A stretch of 21,207 bases of DNA, taken from positions 1-21,207 of the IMG/VR virus record IMGVR_UViG_3300028025_006429. One strand, written 5' to 3'. The translations under genes were made by a program, and so were the position numbers. Below are positions 8,552 to 21,207 of this stretch, piece after piece (position 1 is the first letter of the stretch; each line of letters begins with the position of its first letter). Below the pieces are notes generated by a model that was given only the letters and a program-made list of their open reading frames with translations, was not told where the DNA came from and did no database searches. The DNA comes from a virus.

Positions 8552-8559
8552 TATTTATG
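8552..8559 (+). promoter_or_regulatory. TATTTATG variant of the leader motif, copy 5
   Basis: This one-mismatch form of TATTTATA (ACATATATTTATGGG) lies between genes 21 and 22. Its last three bases are the first bases of the terminator hairpin stem at 8557-8583, and it is 111 nt from the gene 22 start. The overlap suggests either a promoter whose transcript meets an immediate hairpin or a motif that acts at RNA level. Confidence 0.35.
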
Positions 8560-8589
8560 GGTAACCTAAAATGGGTTGCCCATCTTTTT
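8557..8589 (+). terminator. Terminator between genes 21 and 22
   Basis: The arms ATGGGTAACC (8557-8566) and GGTTGCCCAT (8574-8583) pair over 10 bp with one U-G wobble, enclosing a 7-nt loop, followed by CTTTTT (8584-8589). It is a good intrinsic terminator or an attenuator that lowers read-through into the scaffold and capsid genes. Confidence 0.75.
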
Positions 8590-8617
8590 GCAACTCAGGT
8601 ATTACAAACCCATCTAT

Positions 8618-8638
8618 TAAGATTTTTTAATAATCTTA
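8618..8638 (+). other. A/T-rich hairpin in the gene 22 leader
   Basis: TAAGATT (8618-8624) and AATCTTA (8632-8638) form a perfect 7-bp stem with a 7-nt loop, 32 nt before the scaffold ATG. It has no long T-run and is weak, so it may be an mRNA-stabilising or translational element rather than a terminator. Confidence 0.35.
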
Positions 8639-8655
8639 TTTCCAAAATTAAATTT

Positions 8656-8661
8656 AAGGAG
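8656..8661 (+). promoter_or_regulatory. Shine-Dalgarno AAGGAG for gene 22
   Basis: AAGGAG lies 9 nt before ATG 8671, the clearest Shine-Dalgarno sequence in the window. It decides the start: an in-frame ATG at 8557 sits in the terminator stem and would add 38 residues unlike a scaffold N-terminus. Confidence 0.7.
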
Positions 8662-8670
8662 AAACACAAA

Positions 8671-9804
8671 ATGAGTACAAACAAAGATTTGTTCAAAGAA
8701 GCTATCGCTGACGCTAAACAAGTACGCGAAGCCGCATTAGCAAATGCAAAAGCTGCTCTTGAAGAAGCTCTTACTCCAAAATTACATTCTATGTTAGCTG
8801 CAAAGTTAGAAGAAATGAATGATAATGATGAAGATGAGAAACTTGAAGAAGTAGATTACATCTCTGCTAATGACAAAAGTAACGACTCTGATATGATCAG
8901 AAAGAGAGCTATCGATGCTGGTCAAATGTCAGAAGGCGAAGAATTAGAAGAAGATTTTGATTTGTCTGCAATTTTAGCAGAATTAGATTCTGAAGAATCT
9001 ATTGATGAAGCTAAAAAAGAAGATGAAGAAAAAATCGATGAAGCTAAAGAAGAAACAGAAGAAGCAGAAGAAGAAGAAACAGAAGACGAAGAGTCTGAAG
9101 AAGAAACTGAAACTGAAGAAACTGAAATCGAAGATGAAACTGAAGAAGATGTTAAAATTACAGATTTAACTGTAGACGAATTAAAAGACATTATCAAAGA
9201 CATCATCTCAGCTGAAATGGGTGCTGAAGCGGGCATGGAAATGGGCGCTGAAGACGAAATGGCAGATATGGGTGGTGAAGAAGAAATGGCTGTAGATTTA
9301 GGCGGTGAAGAAGCTGGAATGGAAATGGGCGCTGAAGAAGAAATCGACGAAGTAGATTTAGATGAATTATTAGCAGAATTAGATGCTTTAGACGAAGCTG
9401 ATGACAAAGAAGAAATGGACGAAGCTAAGAAAAAAGAAGCTAAAGAAGACGAAAAAGACGAAATGAAAGAAGCGATTGAAACAATCGAAGCATTACGTAA
9501 TGAATTACATGAGCAAAACTTATTAAATGCTAAGTTATTGTATGTAAACAAAATCTTCAAAGCTAAGAATTTAACTGAATCACAAAAAGTAAAAGTAATT
9601 GCATCTTTCGATAAAGCAACTACACCTGCACAAGCTAAAGAATTATTCGAATCAATCCAAAACTCTGAAATCGGAGCTAAGAAAGAAATCGTTAAAGAAT
9701 CATTAGGATTCGCTTCTAAAGCAGCTGGTGTTGCACCTAAGAAAGTGATCGTAGAATCAAATGATGTAATTTCTCGTATGCAAAAACTTGCAAACATTAA
9801 ATAA
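8671..9804 (+). CDS. gp22: Prohead scaffold / core protein (T4 gp22-like)
   Basis: The internal scaffold around which the major capsid protein assembles; it is degraded by the gp21-type protease. The product has 377 residues (T4 gp22 is 269). The N-terminus MSTNKDLFKEAIADAKQVRE and the following ALANAKAALEEAL-TPKL block are typical of gp22 in marine T4-like phages. The middle (roughly 50-270) is extremely acidic, with E/D runs and Met-Gly-Ala-Glu repeats (GMEMGAEDEMADMGGEEEM, AGMEMGAEEEIDEVDLDELL), which explains the extra length. The C-terminal third is helical: IEALRNELHEQNLLNAKLLY, then the NLTESQKVKVIASFDKA block. The order 21-22-23 is as in T4. The start is set by the Shine-Dalgarno sequence at 8656-8661. 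A long antisense reading frame over it is a composition artefact. Confidence 0.93.
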   Translation: MSTNKDLFKEAIADAKQVREAALANAKAALEEALTPKLHSMLAAKLEEMNDNDEDEKLEEVDYISANDKSNDSDMIRKRAIDAGQMSEGEELEEDFDLSAILAELDSEESIDEAKKEDEEKIDEAKEETEEAEEEETEDEESEEETETEETEIEDETEEDVKITDLTVDELKDIIKDIISAEMGAEAGMEMGAEDEMADMGGEEEMAVDLGGEEAGMEMGAEEEIDEVDLDELLAELDALDEADDKEEMDEAKKKEAKEDEKDEMKEAIETIEALRNELHEQNLLNAKLLYVNKIFKAKNLTESQKVKVIASFDKATTPAQAKELFESIQNSEIGAKKEIVKESLGFASKAAGVAPKKVIVESNDVISRMQKLANIK

Positions 9805-9832: not shown

Positions 9833-11410
9833 ATGAACGTACAACAATTATTAGAATCATCTAATCAGTTTAAAACTGTAAGTGATGATGCGAAAAAATT
9901 GAGCACAAAATGGGCTCAATCAGGCCTTTTGGAAGGTCTTAAAGGAGAGAACGACAAGAATTCAATCGCTATGTTATTGGAAAACCAAGCTAAGCAATTG
10001 ATTGTTGAGCAATCTTCTACAGGTGGAACTAACTCAATGACAGGTGGTGGCTACAACTCAGAAAACTGGGCTGGTGTTGCTTTACCATTAGTAAGAAGAG
10101 TATTTGGTGAAATCGCTGCTAAAGAATTCGTTAGTGTACAACCTATGAACTTACCTTCAGGTCTTGTATTCTATCTTGACTTCAAATACGGTAACACTAA
10201 GGCTCCATTTACAGCAGGTGGTTCTTTATATGGTGCTAATGGTACTACAAACGTAACTGATATCGCTTCAGCTTCATTATATGGTGCTGGTAAGTTCGGT
10301 TACTCTATCAATAGCCAATCTTTAGCTATCGTAGCTACAACTGGTTCAGCAACTTGGGCAACATTCAACTTGAATGCTGACTACTCTGCATCAGCTACAA
10401 CTTACAAGACTTTAACAGTAACTTTACCAGCTTCTGCTGATGCTAACGCTGTTAGATCTTTCATTTGGACTTCAGGTTCAATCGTTGCTTCTGATATCTT
10501 ACAAGAATTCACTTCTACAAACGGTACAACTGTAACTTTCGTTGTAACTGGTTCTAAATTACCTTTAGTAAGTGGACCTACTTACTCTGGTAGCTTACAA
10601 TATTCTATCCAACCAACTCCAGCTGCTCGTGGTGATTACGAAGATGCTCCTGCAAATTCAATCGCTATCCCAGAAATCAATGTACAATTGAAATCTGAAG
10701 CAATCGTTGCTAAGACAAGAAAATTAAAAGCACAATGGACTCCAGAATTCGCTCAAGACTTAAACGCTTACCATAGTGTTGATGCTGAAGCTGAATTAAC
10801 TGGTGTTTTATCTCAATACATCTCTATGGAGATTGATTTAGAGATCTTGGATATGTTAATCCAAAACGCTTTCACAGTAGATTATTGGTCAGCAGTAAAC
10901 AACCAAGCGGTTGATGGTACTGGTGTTACTAACTCTAACTTAGCGTTCTTCAACACTCAAGGTGGTTGGTTCCAAACTTTAGGTACTAAGTTACAAAAAG
11001 TTTCTAACAAAATCCATCAGTTAACTTTAAGAGGTGGTGCTAATTTCTTAGTAACTTCTCCTACAGTAGCTACTATCTTAGAATCAATCCCAGGATTTGC
11101 TTCAGATGGTGACGGTGAGAAAATGGAATTCAACTTCGGTGTTCAAAAGGTTGGTACTTTAAATTCTCGTTATAAGGTTTACAAAAACCCTTACATGACT
11201 GAGAACGTAATCTTAATGGGTTACAAAGGTGCTCAGTTCTTAGAAGCTGGTGCTGTATTCGCTCCATATGTACCATTGATCATGACTCCATTGTTATACG
11301 ATCCAAATACCTTCACTCCACGTAAAGGTTTAATGACTCGTTACGCGAAGAAAATGATCCGTCCTGATTACTATGGTAAGATCTATGTTGCTGGTTTAAA
11401 TACTATCTAG
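9833..11410 (+). CDS. gp23: Major capsid protein (T4 gp23-like)
   Basis: The capsid hexamer protein (HK97 fold), 525 residues (T4 gp23 is 521). Signature region at 84-111: LPLVRRVFGE, then VSVQPMNLPSGLVFYLDF, equivalent to the T4 VRR...GVQPMN.PTG.VF block. The C-terminus has DPNTFTPRKGLMTRYAKK and MIRPDYYGKIYVAGL, as in marine gp23 proteins. Residues 1-59 (ending KQLIVE) form a charged, helical delta-like region, and cleavage IVE59-Q60 matches the gp21 [L/I/V]-x-E rule and the T4 site near residue 65. Residues about 125-265 are a Thr/Ser/Ala-rich beta region, a likely surface insertion domain. No separate vertex protein (gp24-like) gene is seen. The leader has no Shine-Dalgarno sequence and no TATTTATA, so it is probably co-transcribed with gene 22. 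A very strong terminator follows. Confidence 0.96.
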   Translation: MNVQQLLESSNQFKTVSDDAKKLSTKWAQSGLLEGLKGENDKNSIAMLLENQAKQLIVEQSSTGGTNSMTGGGYNSENWAGVALPLVRRVFGEIAAKEFVSVQPMNLPSGLVFYLDFKYGNTKAPFTAGGSLYGANGTTNVTDIASASLYGAGKFGYSINSQSLAIVATTGSATWATFNLNADYSASATTYKTLTVTLPASADANAVRSFIWTSGSIVASDILQEFTSTNGTTVTFVVTGSKLPLVSGPTYSGSLQYSIQPTPAARGDYEDAPANSIAIPEINVQLKSEAIVAKTRKLKAQWTPEFAQDLNAYHSVDAEAELTGVLSQYISMEIDLEILDMLIQNAFTVDYWSAVNNQAVDGTGVTNSNLAFFNTQGGWFQTLGTKLQKVSNKIHQLTLRGGANFLVTSPTVATILESIPGFASDGDGEKMEFNFGVQKVGTLNSRYKVYKNPYMTENVILMGYKGAQFLEAGAVFAPYVPLIMTPLLYDPNTFTPRKGLMTRYAKKMIRPDYYGKIYVAGLNTI

Positions 11411-11449
11411 TATTAACTAAACATAATTAGCCCCGTAAGGCTATAAATT

Positions 11450-11480
11450 GAGACTCGAGCGCAAGCTCGGGTCTCTTTTT
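11450..11480 (+). terminator. Strong terminator after the major capsid gene
   Basis: The arms GAGACTCGAGC (11450-11460) and GCTCGGGTCTC (11465-11475) form an 11-bp stem with one T-G wobble, capped by a GCAA tetraloop (11461-11464) and followed by TTTTT (11476-11480). It is the best terminator in the window, as expected after the most abundant structural gene. A small 5-bp hairpin (TAGCC 11428-11432 / GGCTA 11439-11443) precedes it. Confidence 0.9.
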
Positions 11481-11483
11481 GCA

Positions 11484-11491
11484 TATGTATA
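11484..11491 (+). promoter_or_regulatory. TATGTATA variant of the leader motif, copy 6 (before phoH)
   Basis: A one-mismatch form in the context CATATGTATACGTAAC; the flanks (CATA before, CGT after) match the exact copies. It lies just after the capsid terminator and 19 nt before the PhoH ATG at 11511, the same geometry as the portal copy. Confidence 0.4.
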
Positions 11492-11510
11492 CGTAACCAA
11501 ATTGTTATAC

Positions 11511-12179
11511 ATGAAAGAACCTAATCGCGAGAGAAAAAGTGAAATTAAGTCTATAAACGCTTTGCAATTAAATGAAGAGCAAAAAGAAGCAAAAAGGTTA
11601 ATAGTAGAAAATCAAATCGTAGTAATTACAGGTAGAGCAGGTAGTGGTAAATCATTAGTATGTGCTCAAGCCGCTCTAGATTTCCTTAAGAAAAAACAAA
11701 TTAACTGTATCTACAATACCCGCGCAGCTATTGAGGTAGGTAGAAGTTTAGGATTTTTACCTGGTGACATTAATGGTAAATTTGATCCATACATGGAAGC
11801 ACTAGTTGAAAACCTAGCTAAATGTTGTTCAGACAAAAATGAAGTACCTAAACTAATCGAAGATGGTAAAGTTAAAGCATTACCCGTTCAGTTTATCCGT
11901 GGTAAAACAATTGATGATATTCTAATAGTCGAGGAGGCACAAAACCTAACTAAAGGTGAAATGCTAGCCATATTGACACGCTTAGGTAAAAATGGTAAAA
12001 TTGTCATCAACGGTGATAATGAACAAACCGATATCAAATCATCTACAGGCGAAATAAACGGCTTAAGCTACGTTATCGAATTATCTAAAAAAATCGAGGA
12101 AATCAAGTGGATTAAATTGAAGGAGAACCATCGTTCTGACCTAGTAGGTAAAATACTTGAATACGAATACGGGAAATAG
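11511..12179 (+). CDS. phoH: PhoH-like P-loop ATPase
   Basis: A cytoplasmic ATPase of the PhoH family, common in marine phages; its physiological role in phages is unsettled (phosphate response, RNA metabolism). The product has 222 residues. Motifs: Walker A GRAGSGKS (41-48), the family motif GFLPGDINGKFDPYMEAL (81-98), Walker B ILIVEEAQNLT (137-147, with E where D is usual), sensor-like GDNEQTDI (168-175) and a C-terminal NHRSDLVGKILEY (206-218) arginine motif. The ATG at 11511 is chosen because the in-frame ATG at 11448 lies at the edge of the terminator stem and would put the terminator inside the gene. The gene is framed by the capsid terminator and a TATTTATA motif, so it looks like an independent cassette in the structural region. 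Confidence 0.92.
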   Translation: MKEPNRERKSEIKSINALQLNEEQKEAKRLIVENQIVVITGRAGSGKSLVCAQAALDFLKKKQINCIYNTRAAIEVGRSLGFLPGDINGKFDPYMEALVENLAKCCSDKNEVPKLIEDGKVKALPVQFIRGKTIDDILIVEEAQNLTKGEMLAILTRLGKNGKIVINGDNEQTDIKSSTGEINGLSYVIELSKKIEEIKWIKLKENHRSDLVGKILEYEYGK

Positions 12180-12182
12180 TTA

Positions 12183-12190
12183 TATTTATA
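12183..12190 (+). promoter_or_regulatory. TATTTATA leader motif, copy 7 (before neck gene)
   Basis: An exact copy (TTATATTTATACGTG), 22 nt before the ATG at 12213. A 10-bp palindrome TACTTAAGTA (12203-12212) lies between it and the start codon. It heads a run of coupled neck and tail-completion genes. Confidence 0.55.
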
Positions 12191-12212
12191 CGTGTTAAAT
12201 ACTACTTAAGTA

Positions 12213-13388
12213 ATGTCAAATATAGCAATTTATAACGGCTCATCAACATTTGTTTCGGGCAGTTCAACCCCCTTTGGATTTTATGATAATGATAGCACCT
12301 TTAGAACAGATGCTGTTAATGTATCACAATGGTGTGCACAACGCTTAGGTTATCCTTTAGTTGAAGTCGAATTACAATCAGGTTCATTTTTTACTGCTTT
12401 TGAAGAAGCAGTTACTACATATGGTAACGAAGTTTACCAATGGAAAGTTCGTGAAAACTATCTTAATTTAGAAGGATCTTCAACAGGTTCTAATCTAAAT
12501 AACCAATTGATTACCCCTAATATGGGTAATATAATCCGTATTTCCGAAATGTATGCTTCAGAAGCAGGAACTGGTGGTAATATAAACATTTATACAGGTT
12601 CTGTTGTACTACAGAATGGTGTTCAAGATTATGATATTGATCTTGCTATATCTGCATCTATTGGCTATACAGGTTCAGTTGAAGTTAAAAGAGTATTCTA
12701 CGAAAACCCACCAGCAATTGTAAGATATTTTGATCCATATGCTGGTACAGGTACTGGTATCCAATCATTACTTGAAACATTTGGTTTTGGCCAAATGTCT
12801 CCTGGTATTAACTTCTTGTTAATGCCTATCTATTTTGATGTTCAAAAAATCCAAGCAATTGAATTAAATGACCAAATTAGAAAGTCAGCGTATTCATTTG
12901 ATTTAGTGAATAACAAATTAAGAGTATTCCCTATTCCAACTAGCGTAATGTTAGGAATGAACGATAAATTATTTTTCCATTACATTAAAACAGAAGAAAG
13001 AAATAATCCTGTAACAGCAGCTGCGGCTCAAGCATCAGGTAGTTTAATTACTAATGTTTCAAATGTACCATATCAGAATCCAATTTACGCTCAAATTAAT
13101 TCAATTGGTAAACAGTGGATTCGTCAATATACTTTAGCAACTGCTAAAGAAATTTTAGCATACGTTAGAGGTAAATACTCTACTGTACCTATTCCAGGTG
13201 CTGAGGTAACATTAAATCAACAAGATTTATTGACTGATGCTAGAGCAGAAAAAGCAGCTTTATTAGAACAATTACGTGCTATGTTAGATCAAACATCTCG
13301 TAAAACTCAACTTGAACAACAAGCTAATGAAGTTGATTTTATTAATAAACAATTAACAAACGTTCCACTTCCAATTTATATATTCTAA
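12213..13388 (+). CDS. gp13: Neck protein (probably T4 gp13-like)
   Basis: A 391-residue protein. Residues about 37-75 (VSQWCAQRLGYPLVEVEL, then FFTAFEEAVTTYGNEVYQW) form a compact helical segment that I associate with head-completion/neck proteins of T4-like phages. The middle is beta-rich and Gly/Ser/Thr-rich; the C-terminal third is helical (ATAKEILAYVRGKYSTVPIP, then LLTDARAEKAALLEQLRAML). Such proteins form the ring below the portal that seals packaged DNA and accepts the tail. T4 gp13 is shorter (309), and the assignment leans on gene order (directly before the gp14-like and gp15-like genes). It ends in TAATG, coupled to the next gene. An alternative is another head-tail connector family with the same role. 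Confidence 0.6.
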   Translation: MSNIAIYNGSSTFVSGSSTPFGFYDNDSTFRTDAVNVSQWCAQRLGYPLVEVELQSGSFFTAFEEAVTTYGNEVYQWKVRENYLNLEGSSTGSNLNNQLITPNMGNIIRISEMYASEAGTGGNINIYTGSVVLQNGVQDYDIDLAISASIGYTGSVEVKRVFYENPPAIVRYFDPYAGTGTGIQSLLETFGFGQMSPGINFLLMPIYFDVQKIQAIELNDQIRKSAYSFDLVNNKLRVFPIPTSVMLGMNDKLFFHYIKTEERNNPVTAAAAQASGSLITNVSNVPYQNPIYAQINSIGKQWIRQYTLATAKEILAYVRGKYSTVPIPGAEVTLNQQDLLTDARAEKAALLEQLRAMLDQTSRKTQLEQQANEVDFINKQLTNVPLPIYIF

Positions 13389-16489: not shown

Positions 16490-19400
16490 ATGGCAGTTAA
16501 TAAACTACAGTTAAAACGCAGCGCCGTTGCAGGCAAAGAGCCTACTACCTCATCATTAGCCCTAGGAGAATTAGCAATTAATACCTACGAAGGTAAAGTT
16601 TTTCTTAAAAAAGATAATGGTGTCGAAACTATAGTACAACTAGCCGATGTAAGTGGTTCAATTTTTAGTGCATCTTATGCCCAAACTTCATCTCATTCAG
16701 ACAAATTTACAGTAACAGGACCTGTTGACGTATATGGATCTCAATATATATCTGGTTCATTAATTGTAGGGAACGATATTACAGCACGACGTTTAGTGGT
16801 GCAAACAATTACTTCATCAGTAATTTATTCTTCAGGATCAAACATATTTGGTGATGCTACTAGTGATACACAAACATTCACGGGTAGTGTTAATATTTCA
16901 GGTTCATTAAATTTAGTTGGTAATCAAAGTATTAATGCTGGTTATGAATTAGATGTAGATACTATTAATGTTAATACAATCACAGATAGAAATGGTGGTA
17001 CTTTAACATTAGGTGCTTCAACATCATCTGTTTCAGGATTTCTAACAGTAAATAACAGTATATCAGCTTCTGGTAAAATAGAAGCAGTATCATTTACTGG
17101 TTCATTTAGTGGTTCATTATACAATTTACAAGGTACTGCTACACATATCCCATACTTTAGTTCATCTCAAGTATTGCAGGATAGTATTATGTACCAAACC
17201 TTTAATGGTGATGGAAGTAATAGCATTGCTATTAATCAAAATGCTGTTACAACAGCTGCTCCAGAAGCATTATATGTGTGGCAACCATCATCTGCTTCAT
17301 TTAATGTAATTAGTGGTAAAGGTAATTTAGATAATTACTTACAATTAAATATACAAAATACCAATCAAGGAGTTAGTGCATCATCAGATATTGTAGCTAC
17401 AGCAAACAATGGTAATGAAACAACTCATTATATTGATATGGGTATTAACAATGAAAACTTTGCAGGTTTTCTTGGTGGTCCTAATGATGCTTATTTATAC
17501 TCTACTGGTCATGATTTGTGGATTGGTAACTACACTGATGGTAGAGCAGTAAAAATATTTAACAGTTCAAGTTTATCTCCAACTATTATTTTAGATGTAG
17601 ATGGAGTAACTAAAATATTTTCTAGAGTTTCAATTTCAGGTTCATTAAACGTATCAAGCAGTATTGTTGCTCAATCTTTTATTACTAGAGGAGCTACAGC
17701 AGCCGACTTTGTAAAAGGAGATGGCTCTTTAGATAATACCTTATATACATCTGCTTCTGTATTTAACAATACAACTTCTTCATTACAAGAATTTAGCGCT
17801 TCAATGTTAGCTTTTACAGCTTCAACATTAGTAAACAGCGCTTCATTCGACACAAGAATAAATTATTTAAGCAGCTCATTTGAGGCAAATACAGCTTCAT
17901 TTAATGCTTATAGTGCATCAATGAATGCATTTAGTGCTTCAATCTTAAGCACAACAGCATCAATAAACTTATTCAGTTCTTCAGTATTAAACTTTACTGC
18001 ATCTACACTAGTAAATTCAGCTTCGTTTGATACAAGAATAAAATATATTAGTAGTTCATTTGAGGCAGCAACAGCTAGCTTAAATGCGTTTAGCTCATCA
18101 ATGCTAAACTTTACAGCATCTCAAAAGAACTCAAACGGTACTTTTGCAACTACTGGTTCAAACATTTTTAAAGGTAACCAAACAATAACTGGTTCTTTAA
18201 GTGTAAGTGGTAGCACAAACATTTATGGTACTACAAATATAACTGGTTCAGTTAATGTTTCTGGAAGTACAGGTACAGCTATTACAGCAAATGTAGATAC
18301 AATTGTATTTACTGGTTCTTATGCTCAATCAGGAAATGTAAATTTATCTAGTTCAGTTGATATTACAGGTTCCTTAGTAGTAAATGGTAGAAACTATATT
18401 ACAGATAGCGGTTCATTCGATACTAGAATAAATTACTTAAGCTCTTCATTTAATGCATCTACAGCAAGTATAAATTCATTTACTGCTTCTATGAATGCAT
18501 TTAGTGCTAGTATGTTGTCTACAACAGCTAGTTTGAACGCATTTAGCTCTTCAGTATTAAACTTTACATCATCTACTCTTGTTAATAGCGCTTCATTTGA
18601 TACTAGAATTAAGTATGTAAGCTCTTCATTCGAAGCTGCTACTGCATCATTAAATCTATTCAGTGCAAGTGTATTATCTTATACTGCATCTAACAATGAA
18701 GTAATAGCTAAATTATATGCTGAAACTTCTAGCTTATTAGCTAACACAGCATCAATGAATTTGTTTAGCGCTAGTATATTATCATATACAGCTTCAAACA
18801 ATGAGTTCGTAGCTGATATGCTTACTGAAACAGCATCTTTACAAGCAGCTACAGCATCATTAAATGCTAATACAGCATCAATGAATCTGTTTAGTGCTAG
18901 CATGTTAAGCTTTACTTCTTCTACTTTAGTAAACAGTGCTTCTTTCGATACTAGAATAAACTATTTAAGTAGTTCATTCGAAGCAAATACTGCATCATTA
19001 AACTTATTTACAGCATCTTTTAATGCATTTAGCTCTAGTATTTTAAATACAACAGCATCAATAAATGCATTTAGTGCTTCAATGTTATCATTTACTGCTT
19101 CACAAAAAGACTTAAATGGTACTTTAGCAACTACTGGTTCAAACACATTTATAGGAAATCAAGTTATTAGTGGTTCTACCTTAATGACTGGTTCTTTAAG
19201 TTTAACAGGTAGTCAAAATATTATTGGTAACTTAACAGTTACAGATACAATTACTGCACAAAGATTAATAGTACAATTTATAACTTCATCTGTAGCACAG
19301 ATTACTGGTTCTACTAAATTCGGAGATGAAGTAACTGATACTCATCAATTTACTGGTTCAGTATTAGTAAGTGGTTCATTAGTAGTAAACGGAAGAGATT

Positions 19401-21207
19401 ATATTACTGATAGTGGTTCATTTGATACAAGAATAAACTACATCAGTTCTTCATTCGAAGCGGCTACAGCTAGTTTAAATAACTTTAGCGCTTCAATCTT
19501 AAGCTATACAGCTTCAAATAATGAGTTTGTAGCGGATATGCTTACAGAAACTGCTTCTTTACAAGCAGCAACAGCTTCATTAAATCTGTTTAGTGCTAGT
19601 GTATTAAGTTTTACAGCATCCGCATTAGTAGATAGTGCTTCATTTGATACAAGAATTAAGTATGTAAGTTCTTCATTCGAAGCAGCAACAGCATCATTAA
19701 ATCTATTTAGTGCATCCATACTTTCTTATACATCATCTAATAATGCCTTTGTAGCTGATATGTTATTAGAAACTGCTAGTTTACAAGCAGCAACAGCTAG
19801 TTTGTATAACTTTAGTAGTTCAATTTTATCTTATACTGCATCTAACAATGAAGTAATAGCTAAATTATACTCTGAAACAGCGTCATTAAATGCCTTCAGT
19901 GCTAGTGTTTTAAACTTTACAGCTTCAACACTTACCAATTCAGCTTCATTTGATACTAGAATACAGTATGTAAGCACTTCATTTGAAGCCGCTACAGCAT
20001 CATTAAATGCATTTAGCGCTTCAATCTTAAACTATACTGCTTCAAATAACTTATTTGTAGCGGATATGCTTACAGAAACTGCTTCATTACAAGCAGCTAC
20101 TGCAAGTTTAAATTTATTTAGTGCATCAATACTTTTATATACTGCTTCAAATAATTTGTTTGTAGCAGATATGTTGCTTGAAACTGCTTCATTACAAGCA
20201 GCTACTGCTTCATTAAATGAATTTAGCGCTTCAATGTTGAATTTCACATCTTCAACATTAACGAATTCAGCATCTTTCGATACAAGAATTCATTACGTAA
20301 GTACTTCATTTGAATCTCATACAGCGTCATTCAACAACTTTAGCTCTAGTATTTTAAGTACTACAGCCTCTATTAATAATTTTAGTGCAAGTGTATTAGC
20401 ATACACTGCATCAAATGATATTACTATATCTGCAATTTATGCAGAAACAGCTTCATTAGAAGCAACAACAGCTAGTCTAAATTTATTTAGCGCTAGTATG
20501 TTAAGCTTTACAGCTTCACAAAAGAATTTAAATGGTACTTTTGCAACTACTGGTTCAAACACATTCATAGGAAACGAAACAATATCAGGCTCTTTAAGTA
20601 TAACTAGCGGAATTACAGGTTCATTATTAGGAACTTCGTCATATGCTATTTCTTCATCTTATGCTTTTGCTTCTACTAATGCCGAGTTTTCTACTAGAAC
20701 AACTCAAGTAGATGTTTATGTAAAAAACATGACTGGTGCTCAAATTAATAAGGGCACTGTTGTAAGAATTATAGATGCTGTAGGAGATAATCCTTTAATT
20801 CAAACAGCTTCTTATACAAATGATGCTAATTCAGCTAATACTTTAGGTATTACTACTCAAAATATTCCTAATGATAGTTTTGGATATATAATTTCTGAAG
20901 GTATTTTGATAGGAATTGATACAAGTGCTTATGTACCTGGACAATTATTATACTTAGGTCTTAATGGTGCTATAACTGGTTCTGCTCCTTTAGCTCCACT
21001 TCATGCTGTTAGATTAGGTGAAGTTCTAAGAGTCCAACAAAATAATGGTTCAATGTATGTTCGTATAGATAACGGATACGAAATAGGAGAACTACATGAT
21101 GTTAGAGATTCTAGTACAACAGGCTCATATGGTGATTTATTAATTAAGAGTGGAAGTGTATGGACTAATTCAAAACAACTAACTGGTTCTTATGGCTTAA
21201 CAGGCTC
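16490..21207 (+). CDS. Long tail-fibre protein, 5' part (open at window end)
   Basis: An uninterrupted frame from ATG 16490 (AAGGA 10 nt upstream) to the window edge: at least 1,572 residues. Order of parts: residues 1-50 (MAVNKLQLKRSAVAGKEPTT, GELAINTYEGKVFLKKDNG) resemble the N-terminal attachment domain of Mtd-like and other fibre proteins; then SGS-rich beta repeats with ARRLVVQTITSS and DTQTFTGSVNISGSL; a beta domain at about 275-380 (ASSDIVATANNGNETTHYID, then GGPNDAYLYSTGHDLWIG); a long Ser/Ala/Thr heptad-repeat shaft with nine SFDTRI units; then GSLLGTSSYAISSSYAF and a beta domain (KGTVVRIIDAVGDNP, VRLGEVLRVQ) near 1400-1540. The shaft should form a trimeric coiled coil. The receptor-binding tip is presumably beyond the window. 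Role: host adsorption. No chaperone or diversity-generating element is visible. Confidence 0.9.
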   Translation, partial: MAVNKLQLKRSAVAGKEPTTSSLALGELAINTYEGKVFLKKDNGVETIVQLADVSGSIFSASYAQTSSHSDKFTVTGPVDVYGSQYISGSLIVGNDITARRLVVQTITSSVIYSSGSNIFGDATSDTQTFTGSVNISGSLNLVGNQSINAGYELDVDTINVNTITDRNGGTLTLGASTSSVSGFLTVNNSISASGKIEAVSFTGSFSGSLYNLQGTATHIPYFSSSQVLQDSIMYQTFNGDGSNSIAINQNAVTTAAPEALYVWQPSSASFNVISGKGNLDNYLQLNIQNTNQGVSASSDIVATANNGNETTHYIDMGINNENFAGFLGGPNDAYLYSTGHDLWIGNYTDGRAVKIFNSSSLSPTIILDVDGVTKIFSRVSISGSLNVSSSIVAQSFITRGATAADFVKGDGSLDNTLYTSASVFNNTTSSLQEFSASMLAFTASTLVNSASFDTRINYLSSSFEANTASFNAYSASMNAFSASILSTTASINLFSSSVLNFTASTLVNSASFDTRIKYISSSFEAATASLNAFSSSMLNFTASQKNSNGTFATTGSNIFKGNQTITGSLSVSGSTNIYGTTNITGSVNVSGSTGTAITANVDTIVFTGSYAQSGNVNLSSSVDITGSLVVNGRNYITDSGSFDTRINYLSSSFNASTASINSFTASMNAFSASMLSTTASLNAFSSSVLNFTSSTLVNSASFDTRIKYVSSSFEAATASLNLFSASVLSYTASNNEVIAKLYAETSSLLANTASMNLFSASILSYTASNNEFVADMLTETASLQAATASLNANTASMNLFSASMLSFTSSTLVNSASFDTRINYLSSSFEANTASLNLFTASFNAFSSSILNTTASINAFSASMLSFTASQKDLNGTLATTGSNTFIGNQVISGSTLMTGSLSLTGSQNIIGNLTVTDTITAQRLIVQFITSSVAQITGSTKFGDEVTDTHQFTGSVLVSGSLVVNGRDYITDSGSFDTRINYISSSFEAATASLNNFSASILSYTASNNEFVADMLTETASLQAATASLNLFSASVLSFTASALVDSASFDTRIKYVSSSFEAATASLNLFSASILSYTSSNNAFVADMLLETASLQAATASLYNFSSSILSYTASNNEVIAKLYSETASLNAFSASVLNFTASTLTNSASFDTRIQYVSTSFEAATASLNAFSASILNYTASNNLFVADMLTETASLQAATASLNLFSASILLYTASNNLFVADMLLETASLQAATASLNEFSASMLNFTSSTLTNSASFDTRIHYVSTSFESHTASFNNFSSSILSTTASINNFSASVLAYTASNDITISAIYAETASLEATTASLNLFSASMLSFTASQKNLNGTFATTGSNTFIGNETISGSLSITSGITGSLLGTSSYAISSSYAFASTNAEFSTRTTQVDVYVKNMTGAQINKGTVVRIIDAVGDNPLIQTASYTNDANSANTLGITTQNIPNDSFGYIISEGILIGIDTSAYVPGQLLYLGLNGAITGSAPLAPLHAVRLGEVLRVQQNNGSMYVRIDNGYEIGELHDVRDSSTTGSYGDLLIKSGSVWTNSKQLTGSYGLTG
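17843..20290 (+). repeat. Nine-copy SFDTRI shaft repeat array
   Basis: Nine copies of a block of the form S-[AG]-SFDTRI-x-Y-[LIV]-S-[ST]-SF occur in frame inside the fibre gene. Most are followed by heptads such as xTASLNxFSASxLxxTAS. Copies differ at synonymous sites and a few residues. The conserved DTRI probably interrupts or staggers the coiled coil at regular points. A second interspersed unit, TTGSN[TI]F followed by [IK]GN and a GS-rich stretch, occurs three times (around 18150, 19130 and 20550), each after an ASQK segment. Confidence 0.85.
19988..20197 (+). repeat. Tandem 105-bp (5-heptad) repeat in the fibre shaft
   Basis: Two adjacent 35-codon units (19988-20092 and 20093-20197) both read AATASLN, FSASIL, YTASNNL, FVADML and ETASLQ, with a third partial unit following. 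Each is exactly five heptads, so copy-number change would keep both reading frame and coiled-coil register. Confidence 0.85.

Follow-up and report, generated by a model that had tools for sequence, protein, structure and literature searches.

Collagen-like repeats form shafts in phage receptor-binding proteins, and the loss of repeats is there a route to variation. Shafts may also be built as coiled coils. The tail needles of P22-like phages (P22 gp26, Sf6 and HS1) have a trimeric coiled-coil shaft of 11 to 16 heptads among close relatives (HS1 against Sf6), with ends that are 98–99% identical and a shaft that is only 67% identical (PMC3741392). Variation in heptad number with near-identical ends is thus already known for a phage coiled-coil shaft. 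T4 fibritin (wac) is described as a segmented coiled-coil collar fibre with a well conserved shaft and an exchanged C-terminal end (PMC3797505). The stalks of trimeric autotransporter adhesins also carry insertions into the heptad pattern, and a hendecad is the standard outcome when a heptad coiled coil takes up a stutter of four residues (both PMC4786415). In the open-access literature on coiled-coil fibre length variation, hendecads, receptor-binding repeats, Ala-rich fibres and fibritin segments, the fibre type described below was not found in titles or the starts of abstracts.

The window, by which is meant the whole stretch of viral DNA that was analysed (21,207 nucleotides), holds a T4-type structural cluster with genes for a terminase, a gp20-like portal, a protease, a gp23-like capsid protein, a neck protein and PhoH. 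Among named phages, Flavobacterium phage immuto has the nearest capsid protein, with 60.7% identity over the full length. These T4-type structural genes lie upstream of a long fibre gene that runs off the end of the window. A longer record (L002), identical to the window at all of the aligned bases (10718/10718), extends the fibre to at least 2235 residues, and the frame is still open there. The first 44–58 residues match structural proteins of cyanophages and vibriophages, and residues 1406–1565 match proteins annotated as tail fibre. The combination of a T4-type structural cluster with likeness to annotated fibres indicates that this is probably a T4-like tail-fibre gene; judged by the capsid protein, the named phage closest to its carrier infects Flavobacterium. 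The closest fibre with data is that of locus L012, used below as the reference for identities.

16490..21205, + strand: tail-fibre gene, 1572 codons of open frame within the window, continuing past its end
16490..17716, + strand: N-terminal part of the fibre, aa 1–409, 81% amino acid identity to L012

Two other places in the cluster may be recorded. A 415-residue ORF between the protease and capsid genes (8557–9804) contains Glu-rich tandem repeats (9047–9313) and has a 291-residue antisense ORF opposite it; by position it may encode a prohead core or scaffold protein, and in immuto the equivalent place carries the annotation ‘DNA polymerase phi-like’. The PhoH-like gene (11448–12179), which separates the capsid gene from the neck gene, ranks with the best conserved genes in the comparison with locus L028 (98% amino acid identity).

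An earlier, sequence-only reading of this DNA had described one heptad-repeat fibre shaft at 17743–20540. The repeat is confirmed and lies well outside chance expectation, yet the region consists of three shafts separated by two Gly-rich modules. The start given is shifted by one base from the reading frame; read in frame, the stretch is 17744–20539. The parts are as follows.

17774..18133, + strand: shaft I, aa 429–548, complete tiling by heptads and 2 hendecads
18134..18406, + strand: Gly-rich beta module 1, between shafts I and II, Gly 14.5%; 83 aa with 90% amino acid identity to L012
18407..19114, + strand: shaft II, aa 640–875, complete tiling by heptads and 3 hendecads
19115..19411, + strand: Gly-rich beta module 2, between shafts II and III, Gly 12.1%; 91 aa with 65% amino acid identity to L012
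19412..20530, + strand: shaft III, aa 975–1347, complete tiling by heptads and 4 hendecads
20531..21184, + strand: module after shaft III, including the domain at aa 1406–1565; a 135-aa stretch is 96% identical to L012

The domain at aa 1406–1565 (20705–21184) matches, at 32–35%, the tail fibres of several phages, Pseudomonas phage Rollin and Nitrincola phage 1M3-16 among them, and is common to 46 viral loci, the window type among these.

The three shafts are built entirely of whole heptads and SFDTRI hendecads. Together they contain 90 heptads and 9 hendecads with zero residues left over, the heptad count falling to 87 if three end heptads that start with TASQ are omitted. Motif tiling gives 59–225 against a maximum of 25 in shuffled sequences (300 shuffles per shaft), and does so in 8 of 8 shafts from three phages. 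All nine SFDTRI blocks that the earlier reading had counted are present inside its interval, starting at aa 452, 512, 642, 702, 818, 977, 1051, 1153 and 1262. It had called them marker blocks and missed that every one is an 11-residue hendecad, xxSFDTRIxYx, that is a heptad plus four residues. Together with the F that follows, the hydrophobic residues of this unit are F-I-(V/L/I)-F at a spacing of 4, 3 and 4. The tiling places the hendecads as follows.

17837..17869, + strand: SFDTRI hendecad 1, aa 450–460
18017..18049, + strand: SFDTRI hendecad 2, aa 510–520
18407..18439, + strand: SFDTRI hendecad 3, aa 640–650
18587..18619, + strand: SFDTRI hendecad 4, aa 700–710
18935..18967, + strand: SFDTRI hendecad 5, aa 816–826
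19412..19444, + strand: SFDTRI hendecad 6, aa 975–985
19634..19666, + strand: SFDTRI hendecad 7, aa 1049–1059
19940..19972, + strand: SFDTRI hendecad 8, aa 1151–1161
20267..20299, + strand: SFDTRI hendecad 9, aa 1260–1270

A fourth shaft, in the part of L002 beyond the window (10719–12705 of that record), is made up of 46 heptads and one hendecad, with three residues that fit neither; the no-remainder rule applies to shafts I–III and not to shaft IV. The hendecad of shaft IV is one more SFDTRI block, and the three-residue irregularity, SSLDSTYATDADLN, recurs in locus L010. A search for the SFDTRI-type hendecad pattern found only the window-type record in viral contigs and none in genome contigs.

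The heptad is written here as T-A-S-[LMIF]-x-x-[FYA], in which the fourth place is a, the seventh is d and T-A-S occupies e-f-g. Large hydrophobic residues stand at 80% of a positions, 58% of d positions and 0% of f and g positions. Position a is L, M, I or F, position d is mostly F, N, A, Y or E (Ala in 11% of window heptads), f is mostly Ala and g mostly Ser. The Ala/Ser-rich core that had been proposed is thus misplaced, as Ala and Ser belong to the e-f-g stretch. The pattern of 7 or 11 residues is continuous, with hydrophobic residues at a and d, as in a coiled coil. The shafts of L012 and of a further locus, L011, have the same layout, with L or I at a and A at d in about half of the heptads. 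Structure prediction, which the earlier reading had named as a check, was run on one module of shaft III and gave a helix.

19940..20266, + strand: modelled 109-aa module, one hendecad plus 14 heptads, predicted single helix

The predicted helix spans residues 3–108 of the 109 (106 residues) at a mean pLDDT of 95.0. A 532-residue AlphaFold model of the shaft was unusable (pLDDT 35.7). A profile of 12 shaft pieces aligns with the trimeric autotransporter fragment 2wpr (E=0.0017) over 80 ungapped residues and in register, pairing L with I at a, A/F with N/L at d and T with T at e. The shaft would therefore be an alpha-helical coiled coil, and the thin trimer that had been proposed may be its form, with indirect support from the 2wpr profile match. 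Sequence searches of the PDB with the shaft gave no close solved relative, and the helical module as a query against a viral structure library gave no match, a lone helix being a weak query.

Five-heptad units of 35 residues had been taken as the building unit of the shaft. A 35-mer does occur at 11 non-overlapping places with an identity of at least 18/35 (shuffled maximum 15), including three tandem pairs, yet there is no regular array. The basic unit is the heptad; the 35-mer is real but not the general unit.

18635..18844, + strand: tandem 35-aa pair, aa 716 and 751, from the repeat comparison
19682..19891, + strand: tandem 35-aa pair, aa 1065 and 1100, from the repeat comparison
19988..20197, + strand: tandem 35-aa pair, aa 1167 and 1202, 32/35 residues identical

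The last of these pairs lies exactly where the earlier reading had placed two directly tandem units, and has a DNA identity of 0.80 in one unit frame. Among repeat pairs of the window with at least 17 of 21 residues identical (132 pairs), identical residues share a codon in 57.2% of cases (0.572) against 50.5% (0.505) expected from codon usage, and this fraction is independent of the distance between the repeats. As it is so near the codon-usage expectation, the repeats of the window are old and held by selection at the protein level. They are near synonymous saturation, and hence no recent duplication is visible in the window gene; recent unequal recombination between its own units is not supported. 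The longest exact repeat in the window is 44 bp.

For comparison, heptad runs were sought in 144 loci, several of which share a contig, a long shaft being defined as more than 30 heptads in runs of at least 4. Long shafts are present in the window/L002 type, L010, L011, L012 and L013, and the other loci have none or 4–18 heptads. A search of genome contigs gave no shaft alignment, and among named phages no good shaft match was found (7 records at E≤10, the best at 0.007). Four of the six long-shaft records break inside the fibre gene (window end 21207; L002 12705; L011 1; L012 8867), as assemblers do at strain mixtures or repeats, which is a weak hint of strain mixture. Repeated SHAEG motifs are found in related fibres (L010 6666–15413; L014 3643–7437; L003 4609–7962). 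We take these to resemble the heads of YadA-type adhesins, and hence presumably trimers; no family of this kind came up in Pfam for L010 or L014, and a stretch of L010 found nothing in the PDB.

The upstream genes of L012, which are those compared as L028, have 51–98% amino acid identity to those of the window. In the fibre, the N-terminus and the beta modules of L012 and the window are 65–96% identical, whereas the shafts are only 51–53% identical. The beta modules align without a gap (83/83 and 91/91), as does the stretch after shaft III (135/135); the N-terminal part is 409 residues long in the window and 402 in L012. All three shafts differ in make-up, L012 having 13, 34 and 44 heptads and no hendecad against 13, 28 and 46 heptads with two, three and four hendecads in the window. 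When the two genes are compared, 89 of 96 units in the window and 78 of 79 in L012 are closer to units of their own gene, a resemblance that, as read from the sequences, is a mark of within-gene turnover. The part after shaft III is 96% identical between them, as against 75% for the capsid protein, which suggests exchange.

The L011 and L012 shafts are much closer to each other, with 92.9% DNA identity over the best 673-base stretch, and the same-codon comparison of their ungapped block gives 146/161. The alignment of the two proteins has exactly three gaps, of 14, 28 and 7 residues (2, 4 and 1 heptads), all within about 830 bases; these near-identical shafts are a single pair, from metagenome contigs. 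If the lengths of in-frame gaps were free, the chance of three multiples of 7 would be (1/7)^3, about 0.003. Close to the gaps there are exact direct repeats (16, 17 and 6 bp), which would fit deletion or duplication between imperfect 21-bp repeats. Past the shared shaft the two fibres diverge, L011 continuing with a different beta module, and so the shaft is a junction between modules as well.

Within single genes the same step recurs. L013 has seven shafts with the same caps in one gene, six of which have lengths of 2 modulo 7; the seventh departs from this by four residues, which a single hendecad would explain. In L014 all three same-cap shafts are congruent modulo 7, which brings the two loci together to 9 of 10. 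For L010 the same-cap pattern caught only two of its shafts. Tiling of this locus gave seven rows, stretches of at least 300 residues being omitted and the row at 2002 discarded as it crosses a beta module; of the six usable rows four consist of nothing but heptads, a fifth requires a hendecad and the sixth has a remainder of three residues. The proposal that shaft length changes while frame and phase are kept is borne out by these gaps and lengths, with the heptad and not the 35-mer as the quantum.

The explanation that we favour is that long alpha-helical coiled-coil spacers, presumably trimeric, connect the fixed beta modules of the fibre. Since every heptad or hendecad would keep the core in phase, a spacer could gain or lose whole heptads, or recombine, while the adjoining modules are undisturbed, so that shaft length would drift in heptad steps between fixed flanking modules. 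It is probable that the heptad-built shafts of this T4-like tail fibre do drift in this way. Repeat-mediated indels or recombination would be the route of change, and shaft length may in turn affect adsorption. One heptad corresponds to about 1 nm. Heptad multiples are expected if the repeats are 21 bp long, and equally if selection removes indels that break the phase; the two are inseparable here.

An appreciable chance, though less than even, is given to the shafts being static structural spacers, from which selection removes out-of-phase indels and in which the repeats have no role in generating variation. The repeats near synonymous saturation with conserved protein sequence, the lack of any difference between the two window-type records and a longest exact repeat of only 44 bp all agree with this; three indels within about 830 bases at about 93% identity, however, show active turnover in the family, as does the within-gene resemblance of units. 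A further possibility, which goes beyond the built-in device for length variation of the sequence-only reading, is that the repeats are kept so that unequal recombination yields length variants in the population that are favoured on different hosts. The whole-heptad indels between L011 and L012, the shafts that vary in sequence and length beside conserved flanking modules, the own-gene resemblance of units and, as a weak hint of strain mixture, the records that break inside the gene would all suit such a device. Yet the window-type records are identical over the 10718 bases, the whole shaft included, the repeats of the window are old at the DNA level, and repeats with purifying selection give quantised indels in the absence of selection for variation, of which nothing was seen; we regard the device as unlikely.

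Both the indels and the fold could be questioned more fundamentally. Short-read assemblers may have collapsed or mis-joined the repeats, and the relatives are indeed all metagenome contigs, several ending inside the gene. Ordinary sequencing reads are, however, longer than 44 bp, the longest exact repeat in the window, and the exact repeats at the L011/L012 gaps are shorter still (16, 17 and 6 bp); the L011 and L012 contigs also carry substitutions throughout, and L013 holds seven same-cap shafts of differing length within one contig. Assembly artefacts are thus a very unlikely source of the length differences. The shaft could also be beta structure like the adjoining modules, with no coiled coil, since two scales put the peak of the hydrophobic moment near 155 degrees (7/3). 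Both of these scales treat Ala as hydrophobic, which is why the 7/3 period is stronger on them than 7/2; with large hydrophobic residues only, the 7/2 period is ahead, and on one scale the two are about equal. The shafts have 0.3% Gly and no Pro against 9.5–14.5% Gly in the non-shaft parts, and with the helix predicted at pLDDT 95 and the in-register match to the trimeric coiled coil 2wpr, a beta shaft is highly improbable. Drift of coiled-coil spacers by whole heptads is retained as the preferred explanation.

The reach of a fibre is seldom treated as an evolving trait. These fibre genes give a natural length series, bounded by recurring end sequences and running from about 2 to 46 heptads, with which one could ask whether fibre length is adjusted to hosts and whether modules recombine at coiled-coil joints. 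A wider notion, that phase-locked coiled-coil cassettes serve as general recombination joints through which reach is tuned in steps of about 1 nm and distal modules are traded, the variability being kept by selection, is speculative and seems to us rather doubtful.

Among known shafts, those of the window differ from collagen-like ones, having no Gly-X-Y repeat and 0.3% Gly. They stand as long, low-charge coiled coils of heptads plus hendecads for which sequence search gives no close solved relative. With the SadA-type stalks (PDB 2wpr and 2wpq) they share heptads that are polar and low in charge and carry I/L at a and T at e; position d is Asn in those stalks and F, Y or A in the window shafts, and the genes are different. 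Like T4 fibritin, this is a T4-like phage fibre in which coiled-coil segments are broken by other elements; the variable part is the shaft in the window fibre and the C-terminal end in fibritin. Pfam searches of the fibre protein (P0002), whose C-terminus lies beyond the record, gave no family and no fibritin (foldon) domain. No needle occurs among the PDB sequence matches and no needle family was found in Pfam or PHROG, and no homology to the gp26-type needle is claimed. The P22-like needle has one short shaft, whereas the window fibre has three, with one more in L002, that range from 13 to 46 heptads and, unlike the needle, alternating beta modules and SFDTRI hendecads. The needles are nonetheless the precedent for a shaft whose heptad number varies while its ends stay nearly identical.
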